64,000 nucleotides of DNA from Pseudomonas sp. FP198 (GTDB lineage: Bacteria; Pseudomonadota; Gammaproteobacteria; Pseudomonadales; Pseudomonadaceae), in NCBI RefSeq assembly GCF_030687895.1, contig NZ_CP117452.1, positions 2,187,501 to 2,251,500 on the forward strand, read 5' to 3'. A program made the translations under genes and the position numbers. The notes beneath the pieces were generated by a model. The model worked only from the letters and a program-made list of their open reading frames with translations, searched no databases and was not told the DNA's origin. Below are positions 41,278 through 56,503 of the stretch, piece by piece. Within the stretch, counting starts at the first letter, position 1, and each line of letters opens with the position of its first letter.

Positions 41278-42162
41278 ATGTTCGACTGGAATGACCTGCG
41301 CTACTTCCTCGAACTGCAACGCAGCGGCCGCCTGCTGACGGCCGCGCGACGGCTCAACACCACCCATGCCACGGTGGCGCGGCACATCGAGGCGATCGAG
41401 AAAAGCCTCGGCACCGCGTTGTTTGTCCAGCACGCCCAAGGGTATGAATTGACCCCGGCCGGGGAAGCGCTGCTCAAGCATGCCGAGGCCATGGAGAATG
41501 TCGCGTTGCTGGCCCAGGAGGACATCACTCAATCCAGCGCGCCGCTGGGCAAGATCCGCCTCGGCGTGACGGAAGGGCTGGGCATCATGTTCCTCGCTAG
41601 TCGCATGGACGGCTTGTTCCAGCGCTATCCGGGGCTTGAGGTGGAACTGGTGGCCGTGCCGCGGTTTGTCAGCATCCTCAACCGCGAGGCGGAAATCAGC
41701 ATTCACCTCGAACGCCCGGCGGCCGACCTGCTGGTGACGCGCAAGCTCACCGACTACAGCCTCGCGCTCTACGCCAGCCAGGCTTACCTAGACCGTTCGC
41801 CACCGTTACGCAGTCGCGAGGATCTGGCCCGCCATGCCTGGATCGGCTACGTCGATGACCTGCTGTTCAGCCAGGAGCTGATGTTCCTCAACAGCTTTTG
41901 CCGAAACCCTCGCGTGGTGTTCCACAGCACCAGCGTCATTGCCCAGCAACAGGCCGCGCGCTCGGGCCTGGGGATCGCCGTGCTGCCGTGTTACATGGCC
42001 AGCAGCGACCCGACGCTGGTGCCGCTGCTGCCGGACGAAACCATCCGCCGCAGCTACTGGATCAGCACCCGCCGCGAGCTGCACAAGTCTGTCCGGTTGC
42101 GGGTGTTGTGGGATTACGTGGTGCAGTTGTGCGAGCGCGAGCAGGGGCTGCTGTTGCCCTGA
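41278..42162 (+). CDS. LysR-type regulator (CrgA-like)
   Basis: 294-residue regulator. Helix-turn-helix: MFDWNDLRYFLELQRSGRLL, then LNTTHATVARHIEAIEKSLG; effector domain from residue about 92 (IRLGVTEGLGIMFLASRMDG). This subgroup (WNDLRYFL opening) often regulates adjacent oxidoreductases. It is divergent from the GMC oxidoreductase across 129 bases, which is AT-rich and likely holds both promoters. It lies 76 bases upstream of the GntR gene and reads the same way, but a separate palindrome and a GC-poor gap suggest that the GntR operon has its own promoter. Confidence 0.88.
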   Translation: MFDWNDLRYFLELQRSGRLLTAARRLNTTHATVARHIEAIEKSLGTALFVQHAQGYELTPAGEALLKHAEAMENVALLAQEDITQSSAPLGKIRLGVTEGLGIMFLASRMDGLFQRYPGLEVELVAVPRFVSILNREAEISIHLERPAADLLVTRKLTDYSLALYASQAYLDRSPPLRSREDLARHAWIGYVDDLLFSQELMFLNSFCRNPRVVFHSTSVIAQQQAARSGLGIAVLPCYMASSDPTLVPLLPDETIRRSYWISTRRELHKSVRLRVLWDYVVQLCEREQGLLLP

Positions 42163-42226: not shown

Positions 42227-42242
42227 TCATAACTCGTTATGA
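42227..42242. promoter_or_regulatory. Perfect palindromic operator overlapping the GntR start
   Basis: TCATAACTCGTTATGA: exact 7-base arms around a 2-base centre. It covers the possible start codon ATG 42239 and lies just upstream of a second in-frame ATG at 42260. The size and AT-rich arms suit a GntR/HutC dimer, so the regulator probably controls its own eight-gene operon from here. Confidence 0.65.
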
Positions 42243-43012
42243 CAAGTGACTTGCGACCCATGCCCGACAATCTTCTCTCCCTCAGCAGCGTGCCGCTGCA
42301 CACCCAACTGCGCGACGTGCTGCGCGCGCGCATTCTTGACGGTGAATACCCGCAAGGCAGCCAGATGCCTTCGGAAAGCGAGCTGGGCGCGCTGTTTCGC
42401 GTCAGCCGCATCACCGTGCGCCAGGCCTTGGGCGATCTGCAAAAGGAAGGGCTGATTTTCAAGATCCACGGCAAAGGCACGTTCGTCGCCAAGCCCAAGA
42501 CCTTCCAGAACGTCAGCACGCTGCAGGGCCTGGCCGAGTCCATGACCGGTCGCGGCTACGAGGTGATCAACCGCCTGCGCAGTTTCAAGTTCATCCCGGC
42601 GGACAAGTCGGTGGCCGAGCGATTGAAACTGGCGGAAGGCGACGTGGTAACGCAGATCAAGCGGGTGCGGCTGATCAACCGCGAGCCGGTTTCCCTGGAA
42701 ATCACCTACCTGCCCAAGGCCCTCGGCGAGCGCCTGGAAAAAGCCGACCTGGTTACCCGCGACATCTTCCTGATCCTGGAAAACGATTGTGGCCTGGCCC
42801 TCGGTCACGCCGACCTTGCCATCGATGCGGTGCTGGCCGACAGCGACTTGTGCCAGGCCCTCGACGTCGAGCCCGGCTCGCCGGTCATGCGCATCGAACG
42901 GCTGACCCATGACGCCGGCGGCCAGCCGCTGGACTTCGAATACCTCTACTACCGTGGCGATGCCTTCCAGTATCGCTTGCGCATCGACCGGCAAAAAGGG
43001 ACGCAGGCATGA
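42239..43012 (+). CDS. GntR-family regulator (HutC/UTRA type), first gene of the asf-like operon
   Basis: 257-residue regulator. The N-terminal winged helix (residues about 18-85) reads LHTQLRDVLRARILDGEYPQ, MPSESELGALFRVSRITVRQ, then GLIFKIHGKGTFVAKP. The UTRA effector domain follows (LQGLAESMTGRGYEVINRLR, VVTQIKRVRLINREPVSLEI, ending FEYLYYRGDAFQYRLRID). UTRA regulators sense small metabolites. It is the first gene of an operon: its TGA overlaps the flavoprotein ATG (ATGA). Two starts are possible: ATG 42239, which lies inside a palindromic operator, and ATG 42260 (MPDNLLSL); neither has a clear ribosome-binding site. The aryl-sulfonate asf genes of P. putida S-313 use a LysR regulator instead, so this is a different control gene. 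Confidence 0.9.
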   Translation: MTSDLRPMPDNLLSLSSVPLHTQLRDVLRARILDGEYPQGSQMPSESELGALFRVSRITVRQALGDLQKEGLIFKIHGKGTFVAKPKTFQNVSTLQGLAESMTGRGYEVINRLRSFKFIPADKSVAERLKLAEGDVVTQIKRVRLINREPVSLEITYLPKALGERLEKADLVTRDIFLILENDCGLALGHADLAIDAVLADSDLCQALDVEPGSPVMRIERLTHDAGGQPLDFEYLYYRGDAFQYRLRIDRQKGTQA

Positions 43013-44748
43013 CCCAAAGCTCCAGGAATACCCTCGAACAGGAATACGACATCGTCGTCATCGGCGGCGGCACCGCCGGCCCCATGGCGGCGATCAAGGC
43101 GAAGGAGCGCAACCGCGACCTGCGCGTGTTGCTGGTGGACAAGGCCAACGTCAAGCGCAGCGGCGCTATCAGCATGGGCATGGACGGGCTCAACAACGCG
43201 ATCATCCCGGGCCATTCGACGCCCGAGCAGTACACCAAGGAAATCACCATCGCCAACGACGGCATCGTCAACCAGGCGGCGGTGTACGCCTACGCGACCC
43301 ACAGCTTCGAAACGATCGAGCAACTGGACCGCTGGGGCGTGAAGTTCGAGAAGGACGAAACCGGCGATTACGCGGTGAAAAAGGTGCACCACATGGGCGC
43401 TTATGTGCTGCCGATGCCGGAAGGTCACGACATCAAGAAAGTCCTCTATCGCCAGTTGAAACGGGCGCGAGTCAGCATCACCAACCGGCTGGTCTGCACC
43501 CGGTTGTTGACCGATGGGGAGGGCGCGGTGAACGGTGTGATGGGTTTTGACTGCCGCACCGCCGACTTCCATGTGATCAAGGCCAAGGCCGTCATCCTCT
43601 GCTGCGGCGCGGCGGGGCGCCTGGGGTTGCCGGCCTCCGGCTACCTGATGGGCACCTATGAGAACCCGACCAATGCCGGCGACGGTTATGCGATGGCCTA
43701 TCACGCCGGGGCCGAGCTGGCGAACCTGGAGTGCTTCCAGATCAACCCGTTGATCAAGGATTACAACGGCCCGGCGTGCGCCTACGTTACCGGCCCGCTG
43801 GGCGGCTACACCGCCAACAACAAGGGCGAGCGCTTTATCGAATGCGACTACTGGAGCGGGCAGATGATGTGGGAGTTCCACCAGGAGCTCGAAGGCGGCA
43901 ACGGTCCGGTGTTCCTCAAGCTCGATCACCTGGCCGAGGAAACCATCCAGAACATCGAGGAAATCCTGCACAGCAACGAGCGCCCCAGTCGCGGGCAGTT
44001 CCACGCCAACCGGGGCACCGATTACCGCACGCAGATGGTGGAGATGCACATTTCCGAGATCGGCTTCTGCAGCGGTCATTCGGCTTCTGGAGTGTGGGTC
44101 AACGAGCGGGCGGAAACCTCGGTCAAGGGTTTGTACTCGGCGGGCGACATGGCCGCCGTGCCACACAACTACATGCTCGGCGCGTTCACCTACGGCTGGT
44201 TTGCCGGCCAGAACGCGGCGGACTTTGTCGCTGGCAAGGATTTTTCGGTGCTGGATACTCAGCAGATCGAGCAGGAAAAAAACCGCGTCTACGCGCCCCT
44301 CGACCGCGCGCATGGCCTGCCGCCGGCCCAGGTGGAATACAAGTTGCGCCGCTTCGTCAACGATTACCTGCAACCGCCGAAGGTCAGCAAAAAAATGCAG
44401 ATCGGCCTGCAACGCTTCAGCGATATCCAGCGCGACCTTGATCAGCTCAAGGCCCACAACGCCCACGAACTGATGCGCGCCATGGAAGTCAGCGTGATCC
44501 GCGATTGCGCCGAGATGGCCGCCCGGGCCTCGCTGTTTCGCGCCGAAAGCCGTTGGGGGTTGTACCACTACCGGGTCGATCATCCGCAACGCAACGACAG
44601 CGACTGGTTCTGCCATTGCCATTTGAAGAAGGGTGAGGACGGCGCGATGACCTCGTTCAAGAAAGCCGTCGAGCCCTACATCATCGCCCTCGATGCCGAC
44701 GAACTGCAGGCCTACGACCGGCTTCGGCTCGGTGCCGACGCGGCGTGA
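43009..44748 (+). CDS. AprA/fumarate-reductase-like FAD flavoprotein (AsfA-like)
   Basis: 579-residue soluble flavoprotein. FAD Rossmann motif YDIVVIGGGTAGPMAAIKAK near residue 12; then VDKANVKRSGAISMGMDGLN, much like the flavin region of adenylylsulfate reductase alpha (AprA); later VILCCGAAGRLGLPASGYLM, NAGDGYAMAYHAGAELANLE and VKGLYSAGDMAAVPHNYMLG. There is no signal peptide or membrane part, so it acts in the cytoplasm. The AprB-like ferredoxin gene follows 24 bases later, forming an AprAB-style pair. Pseudomonads do not reduce sulfate dissimilatorily, so another substrate is likely. The gene order is like asfAB (aryl-sulfonate desulfurisation, P. putida S-313); a sulfonate or other organosulfur compound is my leading guess. 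Alternative: a fumarate-reductase relative acting on an unknown electron acceptor. Confidence 0.82.
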   Translation: MTQSSRNTLEQEYDIVVIGGGTAGPMAAIKAKERNRDLRVLLVDKANVKRSGAISMGMDGLNNAIIPGHSTPEQYTKEITIANDGIVNQAAVYAYATHSFETIEQLDRWGVKFEKDETGDYAVKKVHHMGAYVLPMPEGHDIKKVLYRQLKRARVSITNRLVCTRLLTDGEGAVNGVMGFDCRTADFHVIKAKAVILCCGAAGRLGLPASGYLMGTYENPTNAGDGYAMAYHAGAELANLECFQINPLIKDYNGPACAYVTGPLGGYTANNKGERFIECDYWSGQMMWEFHQELEGGNGPVFLKLDHLAEETIQNIEEILHSNERPSRGQFHANRGTDYRTQMVEMHISEIGFCSGHSASGVWVNERAETSVKGLYSAGDMAAVPHNYMLGAFTYGWFAGQNAADFVAGKDFSVLDTQQIEQEKNRVYAPLDRAHGLPPAQVEYKLRRFVNDYLQPPKVSKKMQIGLQRFSDIQRDLDQLKAHNAHELMRAMEVSVIRDCAEMAARASLFRAESRWGLYHYRVDHPQRNDSDWFCHCHLKKGEDGAMTSFKKAVEPYIIALDADELQAYDRLRLGADAA

Positions 44749-44772
44749 GCCCTACACCCAAAGAGAATGCCC

Positions 44773-45018
44773 ATGGCCTATCAACCCCAGGAAATATTCT
44801 TCCGCTCCAATGCCCCCGTCACCGTGGACGAGGACAAATGCATCGCCCACAAGGGCTGCACGGTCTGCGTCGATGTCTGCCCGATGGACCTGTTGGCGAT
44901 CAACCCGGCCACCCAGAAGGCCTACATGGCGTTCGATGAATGCTGGTATTGCATGCCCTGTGAAAAGGATTGCCCGACGGGGGCGGTGAAGGTCGAGATT
45001 CCTTATTTGCTGCGGTGA
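44773..45018 (+). CDS. AprB-like ferredoxin with two [4Fe-4S] motifs (AsfB-like)
   Basis: 81-residue iron-sulfur protein. Motif 1 is KCIAHKGCTVCVDVCP (C-x5-C-x2-C-x3-CP); motif 2 is ECWYCMPCEKDCP (C-x2-C-x2-C-x3-CP). Between and after them come QKAYMAFDECWYC and GAVKVEIPYLLR, which closely resemble AprB of sulfate reducers (KAYN..DMCWECYSC...CPQGAIDV). It lacks the C-terminal tail with which AprB wraps AprA. It should pass electrons to or from the upstream flavoprotein. ATG 44773 is preferred because AAGAGA lies 6 bases before it; the ATG at 44767 touches that site. A REP-containing 216-base gap separates it from the binding-protein gene. Confidence 0.9.
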   Translation: MAYQPQEIFFRSNAPVTVDEDKCIAHKGCTVCVDVCPMDLLAINPATQKAYMAFDECWYCMPCEKDCPTGAVKVEIPYLLR

Positions 45019-45027
45019 CTGAGTAGA

Positions 45028-45106
45028 CGCCTTCGCGAGCAGGCTCGCTCCCACAGTTTTACAGCGACTCGGTCCAATGTGGGAGCGAGCCTGTTCGCGA
45101 AGAGGC
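45028..45106. repeat. Two REP units inside the asf-like operon
   Basis: CTTCGCGAGCAGGCTCGCTCCCACA-type unit and, 20 bases on, TGTGGGAGCGAGCCTGTTCGCGAA, in divergent order. They lie between the ferredoxin and binding-protein genes and could stop or stabilise the transcript there. Confidence 0.85.
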
Positions 45107-45234
45107 CACCACGGCCCCCAAAAAAAGCCATCCGGCCACCCCCGGACGCACCATCCAGAACACCCCTCGTTTCCCACCGCGCCCTGATCGTGGCGGAGAC
45201 GAACATCCAATCAATGATTCGAGGGGACACACCC

Positions 45235-46641
45235 ATGTTATTGCGTGCAGCGCTGGCCGGTCTGGTACTGGCTTCATTGACCTTGCCTGCCCAGGCAGAA
45301 ACCATCCGCATTGCCATCGGCACCCAGGACACCACCATCAACTGCGCCGCCGGCGGGTTGCTGATTCGCGAGCTCGGCCTGCTGGACAAATACCTGCCCC
45401 ACGACGGCGCGTACAAGGACGCCGAGTACGATGTCCAATGGAAAAACTTCACCAGCGGCGCGCCGCTGACCAACGAGATGGTCGCCGGCAAACTCGACTT
45501 CGGCGCCATGGCCGACTTCCCCGGGGCGTTCAACGGCGTGGCGTTCGAGACGGCCGGCAAGCACAGCCTGTTTATCAGCGTGCTGTCGGGCAGCACCCAG
45601 GGCAGCGGCAACGGCATTGTCGTGCCCAGCGCCTCGGGCGTGCAGTCCCTCGCCGAGCTCAAGGGCAAGACGATTTCCGTGCCGTTTGCTTCCACCGCCC
45701 ATGGCATGTTGCTGCGAGCCGTCGCGGCCCAGGGCTGGGATCCGCTCAAGGACGTAAACATCATCGCCCAGCCACCGGAGGTCGCCGGCTCGGCGCTGCA
45801 GGCCGGCAAGATCGACGCCCACGCCGATTTCGTGCCGTTCGCCGAACTGTTCCCCAGCCGCGGTTTCGCCCGCAAGATCTACGACGGTGCGCAGGCCAGG
45901 ACGCCGACTTTCCACGGCGCGCTGGTGGATCAGGCCTATGCCAGAAAGTACCCGGAAATCGTCGTCGCCTATCTGCGCGCGACCATCGAGGCCAATCAGC
46001 TGCTGGCCGCCGAGCCTGAGAAATACAGCGAGCTGATCGCCAAGGTCACCGGGGTAGATGCCGAGGTCAATTACCTGTTTCACGGGCCGCTGGGCGTACA
46101 GACCCGCGACCTGACCTGGAAACCCGAATACCGGCAAGCCGTCGGCACCGCGATCGACACCCTCAAATTGCTGAAAAAGGCGGATCGCGGCCTGGACCTC
46201 AACACCTTCATCGATGATCAGTACATCCGCGCCGCGTTCAAGGCGTCGAACCTCGATTACGCCGCGCAACTGGGCAGCTACGCCCAGACGCCCCTTGGCA
46301 ACCCCGATGCCTTGACCGGCCAGCCCATTACCGATGCCCGCCATGTGGCGCAGATCTGGGTACGCGGCGAGCCGACAGTGCGTCATTACGCCTCGGCGCA
46401 ATCGGCCTTCACCGCGCTGGCGAATCTCAAGCAGGAAGGCAAGGGCATCCGCGCCGTCTACGCCCAGGCCAGCGACAGCGGGATCAAGCTGCTGGCCGAG
46501 CAGGCGTGGTTCGCCAGCGATGCCAAGGGCCAACTCAGCGCGTTCTTGTTGAAAGGGCAGGCTGAGCAATTTGCCACGGCCGAGGGCGGCAAGGTCCTTG
46601 ATTTTACCGAAGCCACCACCCAGGCAGTCGCCGCCCGATAA
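45235..46641 (+). CDS. ABC transporter periplasmic binding protein, sulfonate/nitrate type (AsfC-like)
   Basis: 468-residue exported protein. Signal peptide MLLRAALAGLVLASLTLPAQA, cleaved before ETIRIAIGTQDTT. The following 320 residues have the SsuA/TauA/NrtA (NMT1-like) plan: GAPLTNEMVAGKLDFGAMAD, KGKTISVPFASTAHGMLLRA and IIAQPPEVAGSALQAGKIDA. It is 120-150 residues longer than TauA or SsuA; the extra C-terminal part (from about residue 345, IDDQYIRAAFKASNLDYAAQ onward, ending FTEATTQAVAAR) contains a second helical region with no motif I know. GAGGGGA lies 7 bases before the ATG. It should capture the operon's substrate and hand it to the downstream permease. Confidence 0.9.
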   Translation: MLLRAALAGLVLASLTLPAQAETIRIAIGTQDTTINCAAGGLLIRELGLLDKYLPHDGAYKDAEYDVQWKNFTSGAPLTNEMVAGKLDFGAMADFPGAFNGVAFETAGKHSLFISVLSGSTQGSGNGIVVPSASGVQSLAELKGKTISVPFASTAHGMLLRAVAAQGWDPLKDVNIIAQPPEVAGSALQAGKIDAHADFVPFAELFPSRGFARKIYDGAQARTPTFHGALVDQAYARKYPEIVVAYLRATIEANQLLAAEPEKYSELIAKVTGVDAEVNYLFHGPLGVQTRDLTWKPEYRQAVGTAIDTLKLLKKADRGLDLNTFIDDQYIRAAFKASNLDYAAQLGSYAQTPLGNPDALTGQPITDARHVAQIWVRGEPTVRHYASAQSAFTALANLKQEGKGIRAVYAQASDSGIKLLAEQAWFASDAKGQLSAFLLKGQAEQFATAEGGKVLDFTEATTQAVAAR

Positions 46642-46657
46642 ACCTGACACCGCCCCC

Positions 46658-46746
46658 TGTGGGAGCGAGCTTGCTCGCGATGGCGTCAGGTCAGTTGAAG
46701 TTGAAGTGCCTGATATACCGCTATCGCGAGCAAGCTCGCTCCCACA
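46658..46746. repeat. REP pair inside the asf-like operon
   Basis: TGTGGGAGCGAGCTTGCTCGCGATGGCG and its inverse, between the binding-protein and permease genes. REPs in this position are known in binding-protein-dependent systems such as mal, where they favour stable, abundant message for the binding protein. Confidence 0.88.
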
Positions 46747-46770
46747 GGGTCCATTGCGGAGGATAGATTT

Positions 46771-47553
46771 GTGTACCCATCACCCAAACGCTGGCTCCTG
46801 CGAGCCGCTTCCTTGTTGCTCTGCCTGCTGTTCTGGCAGCTCGCCGCCAACGGTCACTGGGACCTCGGCCTGGTGACTTTCGCCAACGTCCCGGCCCCGC
46901 TGGCGGTGATCGAGGCCGCGCTCGGCCTGGGCGAGTCGGGCCATCTCGTTCGGCACTTGGGCAGCAGCCTGGGGCGGGTCTTTGCCGGGTATGGCGCGGC
47001 GTTGCTGGTGGGCGTGGCGCTGGGTTTGGCCATCGGCCGTTCCCGGTGGGCCGAAGACCTGTTGCTGCCACCGCTGGAAGTGCTGCGGCCGATTCCGGCG
47101 GTGGCCTGGATCCCGCTGGCGATCCTGATGTTTCCCTCGTCGGAACTGTCGATGGTGTTCATCACCTTCACCGGTGCGCTGTTCCCGATCCTGCTCAACA
47201 CCGTGCACGGCGTCGAAGGGGTTGACCGGCGCCTGGTCGCATCGGCGAAAAGCCTGGGGGCAGGGCGCCGGGCAATCCTGCTGGAGGTGATCCTGCCGGG
47301 CGCGGCGCCGAGCATCATCACCGGCCTCGCCATCGGTATGGGCACGTCCTGGTTCTGCCTGGTGACGGCGGAAATGATCGCCGGCCAGTACGGCATCGGC
47401 TACTACACCTGGGCGTCCTACACCGTGCAGAACTACCCCGACATCGTCGTCGGCATGTTGTTGATCGGCGTGTTGGGCATGGGCAGCAGTTTGTTGATCA
47501 AGCGCCTGGGCGGGCTGTTCACGCCTTGGCACCGACCCCGAGGAAAAGCCTGA
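46771..47553 (+). CDS. ABC transporter permease (SsuC/TauC-like)
   Basis: 260-residue inner-membrane permease with about six helices. The cytoplasmic EAA loop is GVDRRLVASAKSLGAGRRAI; other typical phrases are LEVLRPIPAVAWIPLAILMF and MGTSWFCLVTAEMIAGQYGI. These are the features of the nitrate/sulfonate/taurine permease family. It starts with GTG 46771, which has GCGGAGG 8 bases before it; no ATG is available at that position. TGA overlaps the ATPase ATG (TGATG). It belongs with the binding protein upstream and the ATPase downstream. Confidence 0.93.
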   Translation: MYPSPKRWLLRAASLLLCLLFWQLAANGHWDLGLVTFANVPAPLAVIEAALGLGESGHLVRHLGSSLGRVFAGYGAALLVGVALGLAIGRSRWAEDLLLPPLEVLRPIPAVAWIPLAILMFPSSELSMVFITFTGALFPILLNTVHGVEGVDRRLVASAKSLGAGRRAILLEVILPGAAPSIITGLAIGMGTSWFCLVTAEMIAGQYGIGYYTWASYTVQNYPDIVVGMLLIGVLGMGSSLLIKRLGGLFTPWHRPRGKA

Positions 47554-48401
47554 TGAGCGCGATGCAAACCCCTGAAGGGCGGATCGATATCCGCCAGTTA
47601 TCCATTGTCCTGGGCCAGGGTGCCCAGGCTTTCGAAGCAGTGCAGGGGCTGGATTGCCAGATCGAGGCCGGCCAGTTCGTCTGCATCCTCGGGCCGTCCG
47701 GCTGCGGCAAATCGACGTTGCTCGGCGCGCTTGCCGGGCACCTGCAACCGAGTGCCGGCACGTTGAATGTCGATGCGCTGCCGGTGGCCGGCCCGTCGCC
47801 CCAGCGCGGCATGGTGTTCCAGCAGCACACCCTGTTTCCGTGGCGCAGTGTGCGCGACAACGTCGCTTTCGGCCTGAAGATGCGCGGCCAGGGCAAGCTC
47901 GAACGATACCGTGCCGCCGATGAAATCCTTGCCCTGGTGGGCCTGGAAGGTTTCGCCGGACACTGGCCAGACCAACTTTCCGGCGGCATGCAGCAACGGG
48001 TGGAGATCGCCCGGGTGCTGGTCAACCGCCCGCGTTTGTTGCTGATGGACGAACCCTTCGGCGCGCTGGATGCATTGACCCGGTTGAACATGCAGGAGCT
48101 GCTGCTGGACATCTGGACGCGCATCCGCACCACCGTTGTCTTTGTCACCCACGACATCGACGAGGCGTTGTTCCTCGCTGATCGCTTGCTGGTGATGAGC
48201 CCGCGCCCGGGCCGGATCATCGAGGACCTGCACTTGGATTTCCCGCGGCCACGAACCACCGACCTGGTCACCCGCCCTGAGTTTTCCCGATTGAAACGCC
48301 ATTGCCTCGAGCTGATGCGCCATGCAGACGGCCGGCAATTGCCGCGCCTCAATCCCCTCGGGCTTCCTCCTGAAACCTCCTTGCCGCGATTTGCCCTATG
48401 A
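47553..48401 (+). CDS. ABC transporter ATPase (SsuB/TauB-like)
   Basis: 282-residue ATPase that powers the permease. Walker A LGPSGCGKSTLLGALAG near residue 50; Q-loop VFQQHTLFPWRSVRDNVAF; signature LSGGMQQRVEIARVL; Walker B RLLLMDEPFGALD; His switch FVTHDIDEALFLADRL. ATG 47553 overlaps the permease stop. Its own stop overlaps the HEAT gene start (ATGA), so the three are translated in series. The nitrate/sulfonate/taurine group is the closest by eye. Confidence 0.95.
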   Translation: MSAMQTPEGRIDIRQLSIVLGQGAQAFEAVQGLDCQIEAGQFVCILGPSGCGKSTLLGALAGHLQPSAGTLNVDALPVAGPSPQRGMVFQQHTLFPWRSVRDNVAFGLKMRGQGKLERYRAADEILALVGLEGFAGHWPDQLSGGMQQRVEIARVLVNRPRLLLMDEPFGALDALTRLNMQELLLDIWTRIRTTVVFVTHDIDEALFLADRLLVMSPRPGRIIEDLHLDFPRPRTTDLVTRPEFSRLKRHCLELMRHADGRQLPRLNPLGLPPETSLPRFAL

Positions 48402-49360
48402 CTTCTCTCTTCGAAAACACCGACAACGATGACATTCTTGCCCTGCAACCACGCCTGACGGACGACGACGCCGGGGTGCGCCGGATCGCCCTGATCGAAC
48501 TGGCTGACCTGGAGGAACCCGAAGGCCTGCTGTGGCTCGTCGACCGTCTGGCCCGGGATCCCAGCGCCGAGGTGCGGGCCGAAGCCGCACGCTTGCTCGA
48601 AGCCTGGGAGGACGCACCGGTGGTCGCGGCCCTGTGCCAGGCGCTGACCGATACCTCCCCGACCGTGCAGGCCGCGGCTGCCCAGAGCCTGAGCCTGCTC
48701 AAGAGCGAGGCGGCGGGGGAGGTGATATTGCCTTGGACCACCCACGCGGATGCCAGCGTGCGCATCGCCGCGTTCCGGGCCTTGCGCGAGTTGCGTCTGG
48801 GCGTTGCCGCACCGGCTGCGATCGCGGCCCTGGTCGACGCAGATGCCGGCGTGCGTCGCGAGGCGGTGGGCGTGCTGGGCTGGCTCAAGCAGCTTGAGGC
48901 TCTGCCGGCCCTGGCCCGGCTCGCCAGCGCCGACCTGGACAGCGAAGTGCGCCGCGCGGCCACTGGCGCCCTGGGCCTGGCTGCGGATGCGCAAGTCTTG
49001 CCGGCGCTGCGCCAGGCCTTGTGCGACCCGGCCTGGACGGTGCGTGAAGAGGCCGCCACCACGCTGGGCAAAGTGGGTCACGCCGATGCCGGCCCGGCCC
49101 TGATCGATGCCCTGGATGATGACTACTGGCAAGTGCGCCTGCGCGCCACTCGCAGTCTTGGCCGCTTGCGTTATGTCCAGGCGTTGCCGGCACTGATCGA
49201 AACCCTGGGCCATCGCATCAGCAATCTGCGCAAGGAAGCGGCGTTGGCGTTGGGCGAGTTGAACGATCCGGGAGCGATCCCCGCCTTGCAGGCAGCCCGG
49301 GACGATGGCGATCCGGAAGTGCGCAAGGCCGTGCGCATTGCCTTGGGCCAGTTGCAATGA
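48398..49360 (+). CDS. HEAT-repeat (PBS-lyase type) protein
   Basis: 320-residue soluble protein made almost wholly of HEAT repeats, about nine units of around 31 residues with cores such as DPSAEVRAEAARLLEAW, DADAGVRREAVGVLGWLKQL and DDYWQVRLRATRSLGRLRYV. It folds as a right-handed solenoid that binds another protein. In phycobiliprotein lyases and some nitrogenase and redox clusters, HEAT proteins help insert cofactors or hold subunits together. Here it overlaps the ABC ATPase gene by 4 bases and the DUF971 gene by 4 bases, so it is a fixed part of the operon. It may be an assembly factor for the AprAB-like pair; this is an inference from position. Confidence 0.88.
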   Translation: MTSLFENTDNDDILALQPRLTDDDAGVRRIALIELADLEEPEGLLWLVDRLARDPSAEVRAEAARLLEAWEDAPVVAALCQALTDTSPTVQAAAAQSLSLLKSEAAGEVILPWTTHADASVRIAAFRALRELRLGVAAPAAIAALVDADAGVRREAVGVLGWLKQLEALPALARLASADLDSEVRRAATGALGLAADAQVLPALRQALCDPAWTVREEAATTLGKVGHADAGPALIDALDDDYWQVRLRATRSLGRLRYVQALPALIETLGHRISNLRKEAALALGELNDPGAIPALQAARDDGDPEVRKAVRIALGQLQ

Positions 49361-49629
49361 CTCCGTTGACGATCGGCAATTGCCGGGACAAGGGCCAGTT
49401 GCGGCTGAGTTGGCCCGACGGTCGCGAGCAGCGGCTGGACCATGTCGAGCTACGCAGGCAATGTCCATGTTCCCAATGCCGGGCGTTTCGCCTGCAAGGG
49501 CTGACGGTTCAGGTCGATGCCCGGGTGCGGGTGGTTGAGGTCAATGCCCAGGGGTATGGGGTTCAGCTGGTGTTCAGTGATGGGCACGAGCGGGGGATTT
49601 TTCCCTGGGCCTATCTGGCGGGTTTTTAG
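49357..49629 (+). CDS. DUF971 (GBBH-like N-terminal domain) protein
   Basis: 90-residue protein. The signature is clear: LRLSWPDGREQRLDHVELRR, then QCPCSQCRAFRLQG, and the end GVQLVFSDGHERGIFPWAYL. The Cys set (CPCSQC) resembles the zinc site of the gamma-butyrobetaine-hydroxylase N-terminal domain. DUF971 is found alone or fused to the Fe-S carrier Mrp/ApbC and is linked to Fe-S cluster handling. It is last in the operon and overlaps the HEAT gene (ATGA). A role in equipping the operon's ferredoxin with clusters would suit it, but is unproven. Confidence 0.88.
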   Translation: MTPLTIGNCRDKGQLRLSWPDGREQRLDHVELRRQCPCSQCRAFRLQGLTVQVDARVRVVEVNAQGYGVQLVFSDGHERGIFPWAYLAGF

Positions 49630-50750: not shown

Positions 50751-50768
50751 GGAGTACAAATGTACTCC
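50751..50768. promoter_or_regulatory. LexA2 SOS operator
   Basis: GGAGTACAAATGTACTCC, a perfect palindrome with core GTAC-N4-GTAC. This fits the LexA2 motif described for P. putida (GTAC-N4-GTGC). It overlaps the ribosome-binding site and start codon of the repressor gene, so the product would repress its own cassette. Confidence 0.85.
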
Positions 50769-51377
50769 ATGACGACTCTAACTCCCCGCCGTACCGCCAT
50801 CCTGACCTTCATCCGCGAACGCATCGCCGAGCAGGGCCAGCCTCCCAGCCTCGCTGAAATCAGCGAGGCGTTCGGTTTTGCCTCCCGCAGCGTGGCGCGC
50901 AAGCATGTGCTGGCGCTGACCGAAGCCGGTTTCATCGAAGTCAATCCGCACCAGGCCCGAGGCATCCGGCTGTTGAACCAGCCGCCGCGCCCCGAGCTGC
51001 TGGACGTGCCGGTGTTGGGACGGGTGGCCGCCGGCCTGCCTATTGGCGCCGATGCCGAGGTCCACAGCCGTTTGTTGCTGGACCCGGCGATTTTCACCAA
51101 GGCGCCGGATTACCTGTTGCGGGTCCAGGGCGATTCGATGATCGAGGACGGTATCCTCGATGGCGATCTGGTCGGTGTACAACGTACGCCCCAGGCCGCC
51201 AATGGGCAGATCGTCGTGGCGCGCCTGGACGGTGAAGTGACCATCAAGCGCTTTGAGCGAGTCGGCGAGCGCGTGCGCCTGTTGCCACGCAACCCGGCCT
51301 ATCAGCCGATCATTGTCGAAGCCGACCAGGACCTGGCGATCGAAGGTGTGTTCTGTGGCCTGGTGAGACAAGGCTGA
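50760..51377 (+). CDS. lexA2: LexA2 repressor of the mutagenesis cassette
   Basis: 205-residue LexA-type repressor. The N-terminal winged helix is RRTAILTFIRERIAEQGQPP, LAEISEAFGFASRSVARKHV; the self-cleavage site is within VPVLGRVAAGLPIGAD (AG cleavage pair near residue 88); the catalytic Ser is in VQGDSMIEDGILDGDLV and the Lys in GQIVVARLDGEVTIKRF. After DNA damage RecA triggers its cleavage and opens the imuA-imuB-dnaE2 genes. The ATG at 50760 (AGGAG 5 bases before) is within the operator; ATG 50769 is a less likely alternative. Its stop overlaps imuA by one base. Confidence 0.95.
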   Translation: MYSMTTLTPRRTAILTFIRERIAEQGQPPSLAEISEAFGFASRSVARKHVLALTEAGFIEVNPHQARGIRLLNQPPRPELLDVPVLGRVAAGLPIGADAEVHSRLLLDPAIFTKAPDYLLRVQGDSMIEDGILDGDLVGVQRTPQAANGQIVVARLDGEVTIKRFERVGERVRLLPRNPAYQPIIVEADQDLAIEGVFCGLVRQG

Positions 51378-52000
51378 TGGGCGCCGTCGTTGCACTGGAC
51401 ATGCTGTTCAATGGCGGCCAGGTCTGGAGAGGCCGGCCTGCGCCGCCGGCCGCCAGTCCGCAGCCCACCGGTCATGCTGCATTGGACGCGGCATTGCCCA
51501 GTGGTGGCTGGCCGGACGCGGCGTTGACGGAAATTCTCATCGGCGCGCCGGGCGTGGGCGAGTTGCAACTGGTGTGGCCGACCCTGGCGCGGCTGTCGGC
51601 GGCGGGGGAGCGCATCGTGCTGGTGGCACCGCCGTTCGTACCCTATCCCCAGGCCTGGCGAAATGCCGGGGTGGACCTGCGCCAGTTGTCGATCATCCAG
51701 GCCGACCCACGGGATGCCTTGTGGGCCACCGAGCAATGCCTGCGTTCGGGCAGTTGCGGCGCGGTGCTGTGCTGGCCGCGCCAGGCGGATGATCGGGCCT
51801 TGCGCCGCCTGCAGGTCGCTGCGGAAACCGGCCAGACCCTGGCGTTCGCCTGGCGCTCGATCCAGGAGGCGGTCAACCCGTCCCCGGCGGCCTTGCGCAT
51901 CGCCATCGATGCTCGCCCCGCACAATTGCGGGTGCTCAAGTCCCGGGGTGGCCTGGCCCGTTCGGCGCCGATTGCGTTCACCACGCACATGGGGCATTGA
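51377..52000 (+). CDS. imuA: ImuA (RecA-like SOS mutagenesis protein)
   Basis: 207-residue SulA/RecA-like protein that is part of the ImuA-ImuB-DnaE2 translesion mutasome. Visible are ALDAALPSGGWPDAALTEIL, which corresponds to the RecA-type N-terminal region, and GAPGVGELQLVWPTLARLSA where RecA has its P-loop. The Walker A Lys/Thr is missing, so ATP binding is doubtful, as is usual for the family. ATG 51377 overlaps the lexA2 stop; imuB follows after 7 bases. Related Myxococcus and Pseudomonas ImuA proteins bind RecA and ImuB. Confidence 0.92.
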   Translation: MGAVVALDMLFNGGQVWRGRPAPPAASPQPTGHAALDAALPSGGWPDAALTEILIGAPGVGELQLVWPTLARLSAAGERIVLVAPPFVPYPQAWRNAGVDLRQLSIIQADPRDALWATEQCLRSGSCGAVLCWPRQADDRALRRLQVAAETGQTLAFAWRSIQEAVNPSPAALRIAIDARPAQLRVLKSRGGLARSAPIAFTTHMGH

Positions 52001-52007
52001 GGTTGCG

Positions 52008-53429
52008 ATGCGCTGGGTCTGTATCCTCTTCCCGCAACTGGCGTTGGACGCCGCGCTGCGCCAGCGCCCCGATCCCGACGAGCCCCTGGCGCTGCTGACC
52101 GGTCCGGCCCAGCGCCGGGTGTTGCAAGCGGTCAATGGGCCGGCGCGCGCCCTGGGCTTGCGGCCCGGTCAGAGCATGACCGCCGCCCAGGCCCTGAGCA
52201 AAGGGTTCGCCACGGCCGAATACGACGCGGCGCAGATCGAGCACTGGCAACAGTTCCTGGCGGCCTGGGCCTACCGCTTCAGTTCCCAGGTCAGCGTGCA
52301 TTACCCGCGCACGGTGCTATTCGAGATCGAATCGAGCCTGGGGCTGTTCGGGCCCTGGCCGGTGTTCGAGGCTCGGTTGCGGGCCGAGCTGACTGAACTG
52401 GGCTTTCGTCATCGCATCGTCGCCGCCCCTAATCCCGTGGCGGCGCGGATGTTGGCCAATGCCCATGACGCCTTGGTGGTGCCCGATGGCGAAACCTTGC
52501 AAGCGTACCTGGGGCAAATGCCGGTAGACCGCATCGGCCTGGCGCCCGACGTCGCCACGGCGCTGTCGCGCATGGGCCTGCGCCACCTGGATCAGGTCCG
52601 GGCCTTGCCCCGGCACACCCTGGCGCGGCGCTTCGAGGCCGATGTGCTCAAGCACCTCGACGCGCTGACGGGCAGTCGTACCCTGGCGCTGTCGTTCTAC
52701 CTGCCCCCGGACCGTTTTGATGTGCGCATCGAACTCAATTACGACGTGCAGTCTCACCAGGCGTTGCTGTTTCCGCTGCGCCGGTTGACCGGTGACCTGT
52801 CGGCTTTCCTGTGTGGGCGCGACAGCGGTGTGCAGCGCTTTGACTTGCATCTGGAACACGCCGGTCTGCCGGACACGGTGATCAAGGTCGGCCTGCTCAG
52901 CGCCGAGCGGGAGCCTTCGATGCTGTTCGAACTGGCCCGTGGTCGTCTTGAACAGGTACAGGTCGAGGCGCCAGTGCGCGGATTTCGCTTGTGTGCCGAC
53001 AACCTGCCGAGCTTCGTGCCCCAGCGCCTGGAGTTGTTCGACGAGCGTCCTCAACAGTCCTTGCCCTGGGAACAACTGCGCGAACGGCTGCGGGCGCGCC
53101 TGGGGGATGACGCCGTGCTGGGGCTGGGATTCGGTGACGATCATCGACCCGAGTGCGCCTGGCAGATGACTCCCCAGCCGCGGCAACAGGCATGCCCGCT
53201 GCGCGAGGAAGTCCAGCGTCCCGGCTGGCTGCTCGGCGAGCCCCAGGCGTTGCCCGAGGGCCAGGCGCGAATCCTCATGGGGCCGGAGCGCATCGAGTCT
53301 GGCTGGTGGGACGGAGCCGACGTGCGCCGCGATTACTACCTGATCGAAACCCGCGCCGGGCAACGCGGCTGGGCCTACCGACCGGTGGGTGAGGGCGGGC
53401 CGTTGTGGCTGCAGGGCTGGTTCGCATGA
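52008..53429 (+). CDS. imuB: ImuB (inactive Y-family polymerase, clamp adaptor)
   Basis: 473-residue protein with the Y-family polymerase fold. It opens [20 protein letters not shown], where active polymerases have a DMDxFF-type metal site, so catalysis is probably lost, as in other ImuB proteins. [13 protein letters not shown] replaces the second acidic motif. A helix-hairpin-helix-like region follows ([20 protein letters not shown]). Near residue 350 is QQSLPWEQL, a good candidate for the beta-clamp binding motif. Its job is to dock the error-prone DnaE2 on the clamp. ATG 52008 has GAGG before it; the upstream open frame is a shadow of imuA. The stop overlaps dnaE2. Confidence 0.93.
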
Positions 53430-56400
53430 GCAGCGAATACGCCGAGCTGCATTGCCTGTCGAACTTCAGTTTCCAGCGCGGCGCCTCCAGCGCCCTGGAA
53501 TTGTGTCGCCGCGCCAAGGAGCAGGGTTATGCGGCCCTGGCGATTACCGATGAATGCACCCTGGCCGGGATCGTCCGGGCCTGGCAGGCGGCCAGGGAGC
53601 TTGAGCTGCAATTGATCGTCGGCAGCGAAATCCAGATCGAGGACGGCCCGAAACTGGTGCTGCTGGTGGAGAACCTCGAGGGCTACCAGACCTTGTGCCG
53701 GCTGATCACCCGCGCCCGGCGGCGCAGCGAGAAAGGCTGTTATCGCATCGTCCGGGAAGACTTCGACGAACCACTGCCGGGTTTGCTGGCGCTGTGGATC
53801 CCCGAAGGCAAGGCGCCCGAGGTGCAGGGGCGCTGGCTCCAACAGATCTTCAAGACGCGACTATGGCTGGCCGTGCAGTTGCATTGCGGCCAGGACGATC
53901 GCCAGCGGCTGGCGGACTTGCTCGCATTGGCCGGACACCTTGGCCTTCCCGCCGTCGCCACGGGGGATGTGCACATGCATGTGCGTGGTCGGCGTGCCTT
54001 GCAAGACACCATGACCGCCATTCGTCACCACGTCACCGTGGCCGAGGCCGGCCAGCGCCTGCACCCCAACGGCGAACGCCATCTGCGCAGCTTGCAGGCC
54101 TTGGCCGATCTCTACCCGCGTGCCTTGCTCGATGAAACCCTGGAAATCGCCCGGCGTTGTACGTTCGACCTCGGCCAGTTGCGCTACGAATACCCGCGCG
54201 AGCTGGTGCCAGAGGGTCACGATCCGGCCTCGTGGCTGCGGGAGTTGACCGAGCGCGGCCTGCGCGAGCGCTGGGAGAACGGCGTGACAGACAAGGTGCG
54301 CGTGCAGATCGACAAGGAATTGAAGCTGATCGCCGAACTGGGCTACGACAGCTACTTCCTCACCGTGCAGGACATCGTCAGTTTCGCCCGCAGCCGCCAC
54401 ATTCTCTGCCAGGGTCGAGGCTCGGCAGCCAACTCGGCGGTGTGCTACGCCCTGGGCATCACCGAAATCGATCCGAGCCGGACGGACATGTTGTTCGAAC
54501 GCTTCCTGTCCCGCGAGCGCAATGAACCGCCGGACATCGACGTCGATTTCGAACACGAGCGCCGCGAAGAAGTCTTGCAGTATGTGTTCCAGCGTTACGG
54601 CCGGCATCGCGCGGCGTTGACGGCGGTGGTCAGCAGTTACCACGGCGCCGGGGCGGTGCGCGATGTGGCCAAGGCCCTGGGCCTGCCGCCGGACCAGGTC
54701 AATGCATTGGCCGATTGCTGCGGGCGCTGGAGTGATGAAGCGCCGCCCCTGGACCGCTTGCGCGAAGGCGGTTTCGACCCGGACAGCCCGGTGTTGCGCC
54801 GGGTGCTGAGCCTGACCCGGCAACTGATCGGCTTCCCCCGGCACCTGTCCCAACACCCCGGCGGTTTCGTGATTTCCCAGCAACCGCTGGACACCCTGGT
54901 GCCGGTGGAAAACGCCGCGATGGCCGAGCGCACCATCATTCAGTGGGACAAGGACGACCTCGATGCGGTCGGGTTGCTCAAGGTGGACATCCTCGCCCTG
55001 GGCATGCTCAGCGCGATCCGCCGTTGCTTCGACCTGATCGAGCACTACCGGGGTGTGCGGCATACATTGGCGTCGTTGCCCAAGGACGATCGGGCGACGT
55101 TCGAGATGATCAGCCGCGCCGACACCATCGGCGTGTTCCAGATCGAATCCCGGGCGCAGATGGCGATGTTGCCCCGGCTCAAGCCCAAGGAGTATTACGA
55201 CCTGGTGATCGAAGTGGCGATCGTGCGGCCGGGACCGATCCAGGGCGGCATGGTGCATCCGTATCTGCGGCGGCGAAATGGCGAAGAGCCCGTCACTTAT
55301 CCTTCGGAAAAACTGAAAAAAGTGCTGGGTCGCACCTTGGGCATTCCGTTGTTCCAGGAACAGGTGATGCAGATCGCTATCGTCGCGGCGGACTACACGC
55401 CCGGCGAGGCGGACCAGTTGCGGCGCTCGATGGCCGCGTGGAAACGCCACGGCGGCCTTGAGCCGCATCGCGAGCGCCTGGCAGAAGGCATGAAGAGCAA
55501 CGGCTACACGCCTGAATTCGCCGCGCAGATCTTCGAGCAGATCAAGGGCTTCGGCAACTACGGCTTTCCGGAGTCCCATGCCGCCAGTTTCGCCTTGCTG
55601 ACCTACGCCAGCAGTTGGCTCAAATGCCACGAACCGGCGGCGTTCGCCTGCGCCCTTATCAACAGTTGGCCGATGGGTTTCTACAGCCCGGACCAGATCC
55701 TCCAGGATGCCCGCCGGCATCAGTTGCAGATCCGTGCGGCGGACGTGCGCGCCAGCGACTGGGAATCCAGCCTCGAACCCCTGGAGGGCCGGCAGCCGGC
55801 GATCCGCATGGGCTTGCGCCTGATCAAGGGCTTTCGTGAAGACGATGCCCGCCGTATCGAGGCGGCTCGCAGACAGCGGCCTTTCAGCGATGTGGCGGAC
55901 CTTGCCGAACGGGCTCGACTCGATGCCCGGGCCATGGAACAACTGGCCGACGCCGGCGCGTTGCGCGGTATGGCCGGCGATCGTCACCGTGCCCGCTGGG
56001 AAATCGCCGGGGTGCAAAAACAACTGGGCCTGTTCGCCGGTTTGCCCAGCGAGGAGGAACCGCCCGTGGTCTTGCCGACGCCCACGGTGGGGGAGAACCT
56101 GTTTGCTGACTACGCCACGTTGGGCACCACGCTGGGGCCTCATCCGCTGGCCTTGTTGCGTCCCGAATTGCGCGCCCGGCGTTGCCGCAGTTCGCGGGAA
56201 TTGCAGACGGTGGAACACGGTCGCAACGTCAGCGTCGCCGGGCTGGTCACCGGCCGCCAGCGCCCGGGCACGGCCAGTGGCGTGACCTTCGTCACCCTGG
56301 AAGATGAATTCGGCAATCTCAACGTGGTGGTCTGGCGCGACCTGGCCGAGCGTCAACGCAAGGTCCTGGTGGGTTCGCAATTGCTTCGGGTGGACGGGCG

Positions 56401-56503
56401 CTGGGAGAGTGTCGGCGAGGTCCGCCACCTGATCGCCGGGCGCTTGAGCGACCTGACTGGATTGCTGGCGGGCATCAATGTGCGCAGCCGCGATTTCCGC
56501 TGA
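53426..56503 (+). CDS. dnaE2: Error-prone DNA polymerase DnaE2 (ImuC)
   Basis: 1025-residue C-family polymerase. The N-terminal PHP domain is [20 protein letters not shown] with [14 protein letters not shown]; the catalytic aspartates lie in [20 protein letters not shown] near residue 370 and in [20 protein letters not shown] near 515; palm/fingers phrases include [20 protein letters not shown] and [21 protein letters not shown]-terminal OB domain follows ([20 protein letters not shown]). The length matches DnaE2 (1020-1080) and is shorter than the replicative DnaE. It carries out translesion synthesis with ImuA and ImuB. ATG 53426 overlaps the imuB stop (ATGA). Confidence 0.97.

Follow-up and report, generated by a model that had tools for sequence, protein, structure and literature searches.

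The window analyzed here is a 64,000-nucleotide stretch (positions 2187501-2251500) of the complete, single-contig 5.86-Mb genome of Pseudomonas sp. FP198. It contains an operon of eight genes on the + strand (42260-49629), encoding a GntR/UTRA regulator, a flavoprotein, a small ferredoxin, a periplasmic binding protein, the permease and ATPase of an ATP-binding cassette (ABC) transporter, a HEAT-repeat protein and a DUF971 protein. The system is real and conserved, and is probably misnamed in databases. Its gene content, family placement, retained and lost residues, linkages and upstream palindrome are well supported at the sequence level, and they identify the flavoprotein and ferredoxin as a distinct clade of the adenosine 5'-phosphosulfate (APS)/3'-phosphoadenosine 5'-phosphosulfate (PAPS) reductase (AprBA) type. 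From these features we infer a substrate, a reaction, a maturation role, a mode of regulation and all the activities discussed below. In the reading that we tentatively favor, and to which we would give somewhat less than an even chance, its products take up a small sulfur-containing organic anion, most likely a sulfonate or a compound resembling one, and free sulfite from it by reduction, with the HEAT and DUF971 proteins acting in maturation or docking and the GntR regulator acting at its own promoter.

Phylogenetic placement of the redox pair

The flavoprotein (43009-44748, + strand, 579 amino acids), the putative alpha subunit, has FAD_binding_2 and Succ_DH_flav_C domains and scored 1136 bits against the NCBIfam model NF006131 (PRK08275; cut-off 587), which makes it a member of this family. 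The closest solved chain by sequence was 8a8o_A, the alpha subunit of the PAPS reductase (PAPSR) of Methanothermococcus (E 7e-63), and AprA was also matched. The score against the AprA model (193.7 bits) was under its cut-off (641.75), as were the best scores against SdhA/FrdA models (169.7 vs 826 and 167.6 vs 567.3 bits), the model of its own family and a flavoprotein-HEAT fusion model aside. The ferredoxin (44767-45018, + strand, 83 amino acids; an alternative start at 44773 is possible) has dicluster domains for two [4Fe-4S] clusters and resembles a short AprB-like beta subunit. Among solved chains, a polyferredoxin was its top match, with AprB and the PAPSR beta subunit among the others; on alignment with AprB, it shares the tryptophan of the CWxC motif, and W60 is kept in at least 93% of 47 rows.

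A residue alignment combined 44 family rows with 24 AprA-like rows and the PAPSR chain. In it, N62 and H357 correspond to AprA Asn74 and His398; both are conserved in at least 97% of the 44 family rows, and the SdhA of the same genome has other residues at these positions. The RSG and late RW motifs were also retained. The residue numbers and roles of Asn74, Arg265 and His398 in AprA are taken as general background. At the Arg265 position the family has Leu248, and a longer segment, VHxxGxYVLPMP, takes the place of the APS/PAPS loop, in the 13 family rows listed. Lys120, Arg121 and Ser122 of the loop of the Methanothermococcus thermolithotrophicus enzyme (MtPAPSR) are replaced in these rows; according to an excerpt of PMC10322725, loop 104-123 with these three residues would set specificity for PAPS and hold its 3'-phosphate. 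The same excerpt describes an attack of the reduced flavin adenine dinucleotide (FAD) on the sulfur at N5, and proposes N5-sulfite chemistry and a role for Trp42 of PAPSR in electron transfer. As the APS-binding loop and Arg265 have been lost, the substrate should be neither APS nor PAPS, and the family thus represents an AprBA-like enzyme whose adenylate site is gone.

In a quick tree, the 36 family rows were set apart by a branch with a Shimodaira-Hasegawa-like approximate likelihood ratio (SH-aLRT) value of 92, and AprA and PAPSR were grouped together with a value of 100. The family lay apart from the SdhA and NadB of the same genome and from a candidate AsfA (see below), its exact place being unsure because many deep branches are long. 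The preliminary description of this DNA had proposed an AprAB-like redox pair, a claim borne out by the closest solved relatives and the retained Asn and His. Two of the nine genomes tested had both a family member and an AprA over the cut-off. Database rows named by their source are mostly called fumarate reductase/succinate dehydrogenase, a naming that hides the flavoprotein; for this protein, the name fumarate reductase is probably wrong.

The order flavoprotein, ferredoxin, binding protein had led to the suggestion of kinship with asfABC. Excerpts of two papers describe asfRABC as a reductase/ferredoxin and a transporter aiding oxygenolytic desulfonation, with a LysR regulator, and taken to work with SsuD (PMC4267179), and place asfRAB of Cupriavidus metallidurans CH34 on the second replicon (PMC2864759). 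The order is indeed alike, but the CH34 replicon bearing asf had no member of the window flavoprotein family (best score 83.8 bits, cut-off 587). The likeliest CH34 AsfA, at locus L181, was chosen by inference from an unannotated record, as a candidate for the open reading frame (ORF) pair Rmet_4334/5; it is 23% identical to the window flavoprotein and lies apart from its family in the tree. No LysR gene stands beside the L181 pair in its ORF list, the best match to this candidate in the FP198 genome was the window flavoprotein itself, at 31 bits, and a protein search with the candidate returned no row named AsfA among the best 120 of 5038 matches. Orthology with AsfA was rejected on the basis of the missing family member and the 23% identity, with the Cupriavidus rather than the S-313 sequence as reference. 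On this evidence, the window pair is best regarded as proteins of another family than AsfA/AsfB.

Distribution and conservation of the gene neighborhood

Model NF006131 was matched over its cut-off in 39 of 99 genomes of the genus (two with split genes) and in five of 274 genomes drawn from the class, and the flavoprotein-HEAT fusion model NF010374 gave at least 796 bits in 21 genomes out of a sample of 398 from the phylum, the next best match scoring 113; all three counts include the FP198 genome, which has a single flavoprotein copy over the cut-off. Flavoprotein genes split into two adjacent pieces, by decay or sequencing error, were observed at G689:C1:3546569-3548280 and G735:C1:1893174-1894875. 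In a plasmid collection, 53 records had a match at E 1e-60 or better, from hosts including Paraburkholderia, Cupriavidus, Acinetobacter, Acidithiobacillus, rhizobia, Methylobacterium, Methylocystis, three cyanobacterial genera, Tsukamurella and Nonomuraea.

We tabulated gene neighborhoods, as the preliminary description had proposed, with tblastn gene queries, for the 80 best loci of genome contigs (79 titled Pseudomonas and one metagenome-assembled genome titled Paucimonas). The ferredoxin was found in 80 loci, GntR in 79, the binding protein and HEAT protein in 77 each, and the permease, ATPase and DUF971 protein in 76 each. The gene order recurs across this set, which argues against a chance arrangement; the exceptions are contig ends (L002, L008, L014 and L019), L052, with no GntR match, and L077, which is devoid of the three transporter genes and retains GntR, flavoprotein, ferredoxin, HEAT and DUF971.

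A second set comprised 40 distant loci: 16 plasmid loci chosen from the 53 matches, and 24 genome loci that comprise every strong match of two samples apart from FP198 itself (20 of 21 in one, 4 of 5 in the other); L168 (29% identical, without HEAT) was excluded. The controls were 40 stretches of 19 kb at hand-chosen round positions in 17 genomes (16 of the 24 plus FP198), none from plasmid records. The ferredoxin was present in all 40 distant loci, the binding protein in 35, DUF971 in 27 and Mrp in four. HEAT was encoded separately in 39 loci and fused to the flavoprotein in the remaining one (L172, Tsukamurella, 893 amino acids). The four Mrp loci were all cyanobacterial, with Mrp as the next listed gene after HEAT, and Mrp and DUF971 occurred together in none of the 40. 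Queries for TauE, YeiH, Mrp, Fpr, FdxA and Rnf were taken from the test loci, so that some of their test matches are self-matches. In the control stretches, HEAT, DUF971, ferredoxin, TauE, YeiH, Fpr, FdxA and Rnf were all absent (0/40), seven had an ATPase-like match and one a GntR match. The same queries did not detect HEAT in 24 short AprA-like loci (L090-L113, about 1.5 kb on each side). The proposed linkage of HEAT and DUF971 genes to the redox pair is thus conserved across the 80 loci, including L077, and extends to distant loci.

Two side observations concern these relatives. The flavoprotein frame at L145:8447-10525 is 692 amino acids long and its family match begins at residue 112, so that translation probably begins farther downstream. 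In L169 and L175 (Nostoc and Methylocystis), the genes near the cluster include ones with amidase and GNAT acetyltransferase annotations.

The HEAT and DUF971 proteins

The HEAT-repeat protein (48398-49360, + strand, 320 amino acids; HEAT_2, 179 bits) was modeled by AlphaFold2 as 20 helices with a mean predicted local distance difference test (pLDDT) score of 95.3, and Foldseek returned generic HEAT/alphaRep repeat proteins among the best 50 matches listed. It matches the C-terminal part of NF010374 (80 bits), and has no cysteine kept in 93% of 46 aligned rows. The DUF971 (GBBH-like_N) protein (49357-49629, + strand, 90 amino acids; PF06155, 77 bits vs a cut-off of 22.8) has a DGHxxGIxP motif kept in at least 93% of 34 rows. 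It stands alone: an HCF101-type architecture, with DUF59, ATPase and DUF971 in one protein, was not encountered, and the three cyanobacterial Mrp proteins checked had DUF59 and the ATPase without DUF971. An excerpt of PMC11838916 reports that HCF101 unites DUF59, an Mrp/NBP35 ATPase and DUF971, that Toxoplasma HCF101 pulls down the HEAT protein MET18, and that the function of DUF971 is not yet defined; MET18 belongs to a complex handing Fe-S clusters to clients (excerpt of PMC10728100). These parallels, together with the cyanobacterial Mrp genes, make a maturation role for the HEAT and DUF971 proteins somewhat likelier than a role of HEAT as a permanent subunit, which is nearly as likely given the fusion to the flavoprotein. 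The operon constitutes a small, testable model of HEAT and DUF971 proteins serving one Fe-S client.

Transport, electron supply and fate of sulfur

The binding protein (45235-46641, + strand), SsuA/TauA-like with NMT1 domains and a C-terminal extension, scored 128.1 bits against SsuA_fam (cut-off 163.5) and 90.6 bits against TauA (cut-off 304.25); its closest solved chains were 2x26 (SsuA), 3e4r and 6ssy (TauA), consistent with the sulfonate-type transporter that had been proposed beside the redox pair. The permease (46771-47553, + strand, GTG start; BPD_transp_1) matched the SsuC, SaoP, NtrB and TauC models, all under their cut-offs, and the best model for the ATPase (47553-48401, + strand; ABC_tran) was TauB, at 257 bits (cut-off 357). 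The C-terminal 100 residues of the binding protein gave a weak NosL-like match under its cut-off (21.1 bits, cut-off 24).

Genes related to electron transfer were found near some of the distant relatives. Rnf genes follow the redox genes in two of the 40 loci (L166 and L167), with all six subunits (A, B, C, D, G and E) over TIGR cut-offs in L167, and Fpr and FdxA each lie near 10 of the 40, against 0/40 controls. These genes point to low-potential electrons going in, and favor the reductive chemistry that the preliminary description had considered possible. Genes of the YeiH family lie near nine distant loci (PF03601 in the four checked) and genes of the TauE family near five (PF01925 in the three checked); 11 of the 40 loci have one or the other, at a distance of 2 to 9 kb from the flavoprotein, vs 0/40 controls, with the family assignment confirmed for six of the 11. 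According to excerpts of PMC5373536 and PMC5320631, TauE and PSE proteins export sulfite and sulfate. After removal of the self-match, the difference for YeiH was 8/39 vs 0/40 (p 0.002).

The eight genes include no oxygenase, in agreement with the initial reading. In 25 family-bearing genomes, SsuD was over the cut-off in 18 (635 bits in FP198), gave only weaker matches in four and no match in three, one of which is only 88% complete. PF02668 was found in four of the five genomes tested among those lacking SsuD over the cut-off, the complete genome G026 having no PF02668/TauD match. A sulfite/nitrite reductase-family gene was present in all 25.

Three cyanobacterial loci have a LysR gene between the transporter genes and the flavoprotein (L170:5658-7673, on a Pseudanabaena plasmid, and similar genes in L171 and L188). 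The regulator, of about 670 amino acids, has a C-terminal part related to the window binding protein (154-162 bits, two other queries giving as much as 173), and may therefore be a regulator carrying its own ligand-binding protein, as if sensing the imported compound.

These elements could be assembled as follows. The SsuA/TauA-like binding protein, permease and ATPase would bring in a sulfonate-type anion. The flavoprotein and ferredoxin would form a ferredoxin-driven alpha-beta enzyme of AprBA/PAPSR type, in which electrons would pass through the two [4Fe-4S] clusters and the conserved tryptophan to FAD. The reduced flavin would then take the sulfo group from the substrate, and the sulfur would leave as sulfite, to be assimilated or exported. 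HEAT and DUF971, or in cyanobacteria an Mrp/NBP35 carrier, would be dedicated maturation or docking factors for the clusters of the enzyme.

A candidate operator upstream of the regulator

The presence of a GntR/UTRA regulator in the operon, rather than a LysR, was corroborated by GntR and UTRA domains in the first gene product (42260-43012, + strand, 250 amino acids); the best match to the upstream LysR gene (41278-42162) adjoins GntR in none of the 80 loci. A palindrome, ACTCGTTATGACAAGT, lies at 42232..42247 (no strand assigned), with a consensus of about ACTTGTNATNACAAGT. Allowing three mismatches at most, ACTTGTTATAACAAGT was found before GntR in 78 of the 79 GntR-bearing loci of the 80-locus set. 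At up to four mismatches, it was present in 16 of the 21 distant loci with a GntR match (six of the 16 from the same family), at least two of the five misses being other GntR genes farther off; it was absent from the 19 distant loci without GntR and from 400 control stretches. The palindrome is a probable GntR operator, and no second site for ACTYGTTATRACAAGT at up to two mismatches was found in the FP198 genome, so the regulator seems to serve this operon alone. It would bind this one palindrome at its own promoter and sense a pathway metabolite. A palindrome, GCAATTTATTGC, recurs upstream of the DUF971/flavoprotein genes in L157, L189 and L190, which are rhizobial-type loci without GntR and with a Crp/Fnr gene.

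Weighing of alternative interpretations

Several points weigh against reductive desulfonation of an imported sulfonate. Cleavage of a C-S bond involves a far worse leaving group than that of the S-O bond attacked by AprA, and the true substrate could therefore be an activated compound or contain a different kind of bond. The binding protein, permease and ATPase are all under sulfonate-model cut-offs, and the pLDDT of 51 makes the binding-protein model unusable. DUF971 is absent from 13 of the 40 distant loci, and several rhizobial versions no longer have its Cys motif. The exporter linkage comes from about five lineages, with five of the 11 loci in one genus and three in cyanobacteria; its effect falls short of significance (p 0.14) when rough guesses of lineage numbers are used, the genes sit 2 to 9 kb away from the flavoprotein, four of the five TauE matches are the query proteins themselves, the controls were hand-placed and not drawn from plasmid records, and no exporter gene was found in the 80 loci of the Pseudomonas set. 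Similarly, six of the 10 Fpr loci belong to one genus, and Rnf occurs in two loci only.

If the sulfo group were on O, N or S rather than C, as in a sulfate ester, a sulfamate or a thiosulfonate such as S-sulfocysteine, the same chemistry would give sulfite directly, as an assimilation shortcut. The cleavage of S-O bonds by AprA and PAPSR, the retained Asn and His, and the holding of sulfo groups by SsuA-like binding proteins would all suit such a substrate, but the nearest solved binding proteins are sulfonate binders and no sulfatase-annotated gene was found in 16 annotated plasmid regions; we consider it unlikely, while according it appreciable weight. An imported anion with no sulfo group, such as a selenium, arsenic or organometal compound, is decidedly improbable: the same sulfonate-binder structures and the sulfite/sulfate-exporter families near some relatives argue against it, despite the SaoX, SaoP and SaoA models, which the transporter parts match below cut-off in every case, and the weak NosL-like tail. 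We judge rather improbable the idea that the pair does no more than pass electrons to an oxygenase whose gene lies elsewhere, in the way suggested for AsfAB and SsuD. It draws on the role of asfRABC in oxygenolytic desulfonation (excerpt of PMC4267179) and on the SsuD of FP198 and of 18 of the 25 family genomes, but seven of the 25 genomes lack SsuD over the cut-off, G026 lacks PF02668 too, although most genomes tested have one, and the flavoprotein keeps AprA-type catalytic residues and is not AsfA.

The domains of the flavoprotein and its database names would fit an ordinary succinate/fumarate-type or other organic-acid oxidoreductase; its separation from SdhA and NadB in the tree, the AprA-type Asn and His, and scores of at most 169.7 bits against succinate dehydrogenase/fumarate reductase models, far under their cut-offs (own family and fusion model again aside), make this extremely improbable. 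More serious, although on balance doubtful, is the possibility that HEAT is a subunit with a structural or electron-docking function, alongside DUF971 as an unrelated accessory, and that neither takes part in assembly. The Tsukamurella fusion and the NF010374 model are what would be expected of a permanent subunit, and the predicted fold is generic, but the gene following HEAT in cyanobacteria encodes an Mrp/NBP35 protein, of an Fe-S carrier family, and HCF101 joins that ATPase to DUF971 and pulls down MET18 in Toxoplasma (excerpt of PMC11838916).

The favored sulfonate-type reading also has a more specific form: a desulfonase of AprBA type, found in aerobic bacteria of soil and plants, that would work reductively and without oxygen, splitting sulfite off an imported sulfonate with ferredoxin electrons, and would have a private HEAT and DUF971 or Mrp/NBP35 maturation module resembling parts of the eukaryotic HCF101 and cytosolic iron-sulfur assembly (CIA) system. 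In this full form, we regard the proposal as speculative and unlikely, while according it some weight. When sulfonates supply sulfur under aerobic conditions, their breakdown is attributed to the oxygenases SsuD, TauD and Asf-linked enzymes (excerpts of PMC4267179 and PMC5320631, and otherwise general background). A reductive route, if true, would revise this oxygenase-based view and extend APS-reductase chemistry to ordinary bacteria of soil and plants. A description of the operon was not found among the matches listed in a search of the open-access literature, and excerpts of PMC8557817 make no mention of it.

Operon layout and neighboring features

Reading of the sequence and domain searches confirmed the eight genes, their single strand and their order, with five of seven junctions overlapping or short. 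The start of GntR originally placed at 42239 had to be corrected: 42260 is more likely, because the ATG at 42239 sits in the conserved palindrome and the ATG at 42260 is conserved in the upstream alignment. The junctions are, in order, ATGA (GntR/flavoprotein), 18 bases (flavoprotein/ferredoxin), 216 bases, 129 bases, TGATG (permease/ATPase), ATGA (ATPase/HEAT) and ATGA (HEAT/DUF971). The two larger gaps (45019..45234 and 46642..46770, no strand assigned) contain facing pairs of elements resembling repetitive extragenic palindromic sequences, named by eye from the sequence; they flank the binding-protein gene, whose share of the transcript could be altered.

LexA-, ImuA- and DnaE2-like genes, named from their translations without a family search, follow the operon (50760-56503), and LexA and ImuA homologues lie within about 10 kb in many of the 80 best loci. 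A sulfite reductase-family match (PF01077) in an open frame of 586 amino acids is located at C1:2251806-2253092 of the FP198 genome, on the minus strand; it begins 306 bases past the window end, about 14.7 kb from the operon.

Comparison with known systems

The operon shares with asfRABC of Pseudomonas putida S-313 a sulfonate-type transport system and, according to the preliminary description, the order flavoprotein, ferredoxin, binding protein. However, the asf unit includes a LysR regulator and is considered to act together with SsuD (excerpt of PMC4267179), the window family is absent from the CH34 replicon that carries asfA according to the excerpt of PMC2864759, and neither excerpt mentions HEAT or DUF971. 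With SsuABC/TauABC, the likeness lies in a binding protein and an ATPase nearest to these systems and a permease that matches them among others, whereas the three parts are under the curated cut-offs and the binding protein is about 150 residues longer. The HCF101/CIA targeting complex (Mrp/NBP35 with DUF971; MET18/MMS19) also has HEAT with DUF971 or an Mrp/NBP35 ATPase beside an Fe-S client, but the system described here is bacterial, has a single client and separate genes, and the resemblance is one of parts only. With the PAPS reductase of M. thermolithotrophicus (8a8o; PMC10322725) and dissimilatory AprBA, the pair has in common an FAD alpha subunit with a two-[4Fe-4S] beta subunit, the active-site Asn and His, the RSG and RW motifs and the CWxC tryptophan. 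It differs from them in having Leu in place of AprA Arg265, a rewritten APS/PAPS loop, a short beta subunit and a separate branch in the tree, and in being tied to an ABC importer and to HEAT and DUF971 proteins.

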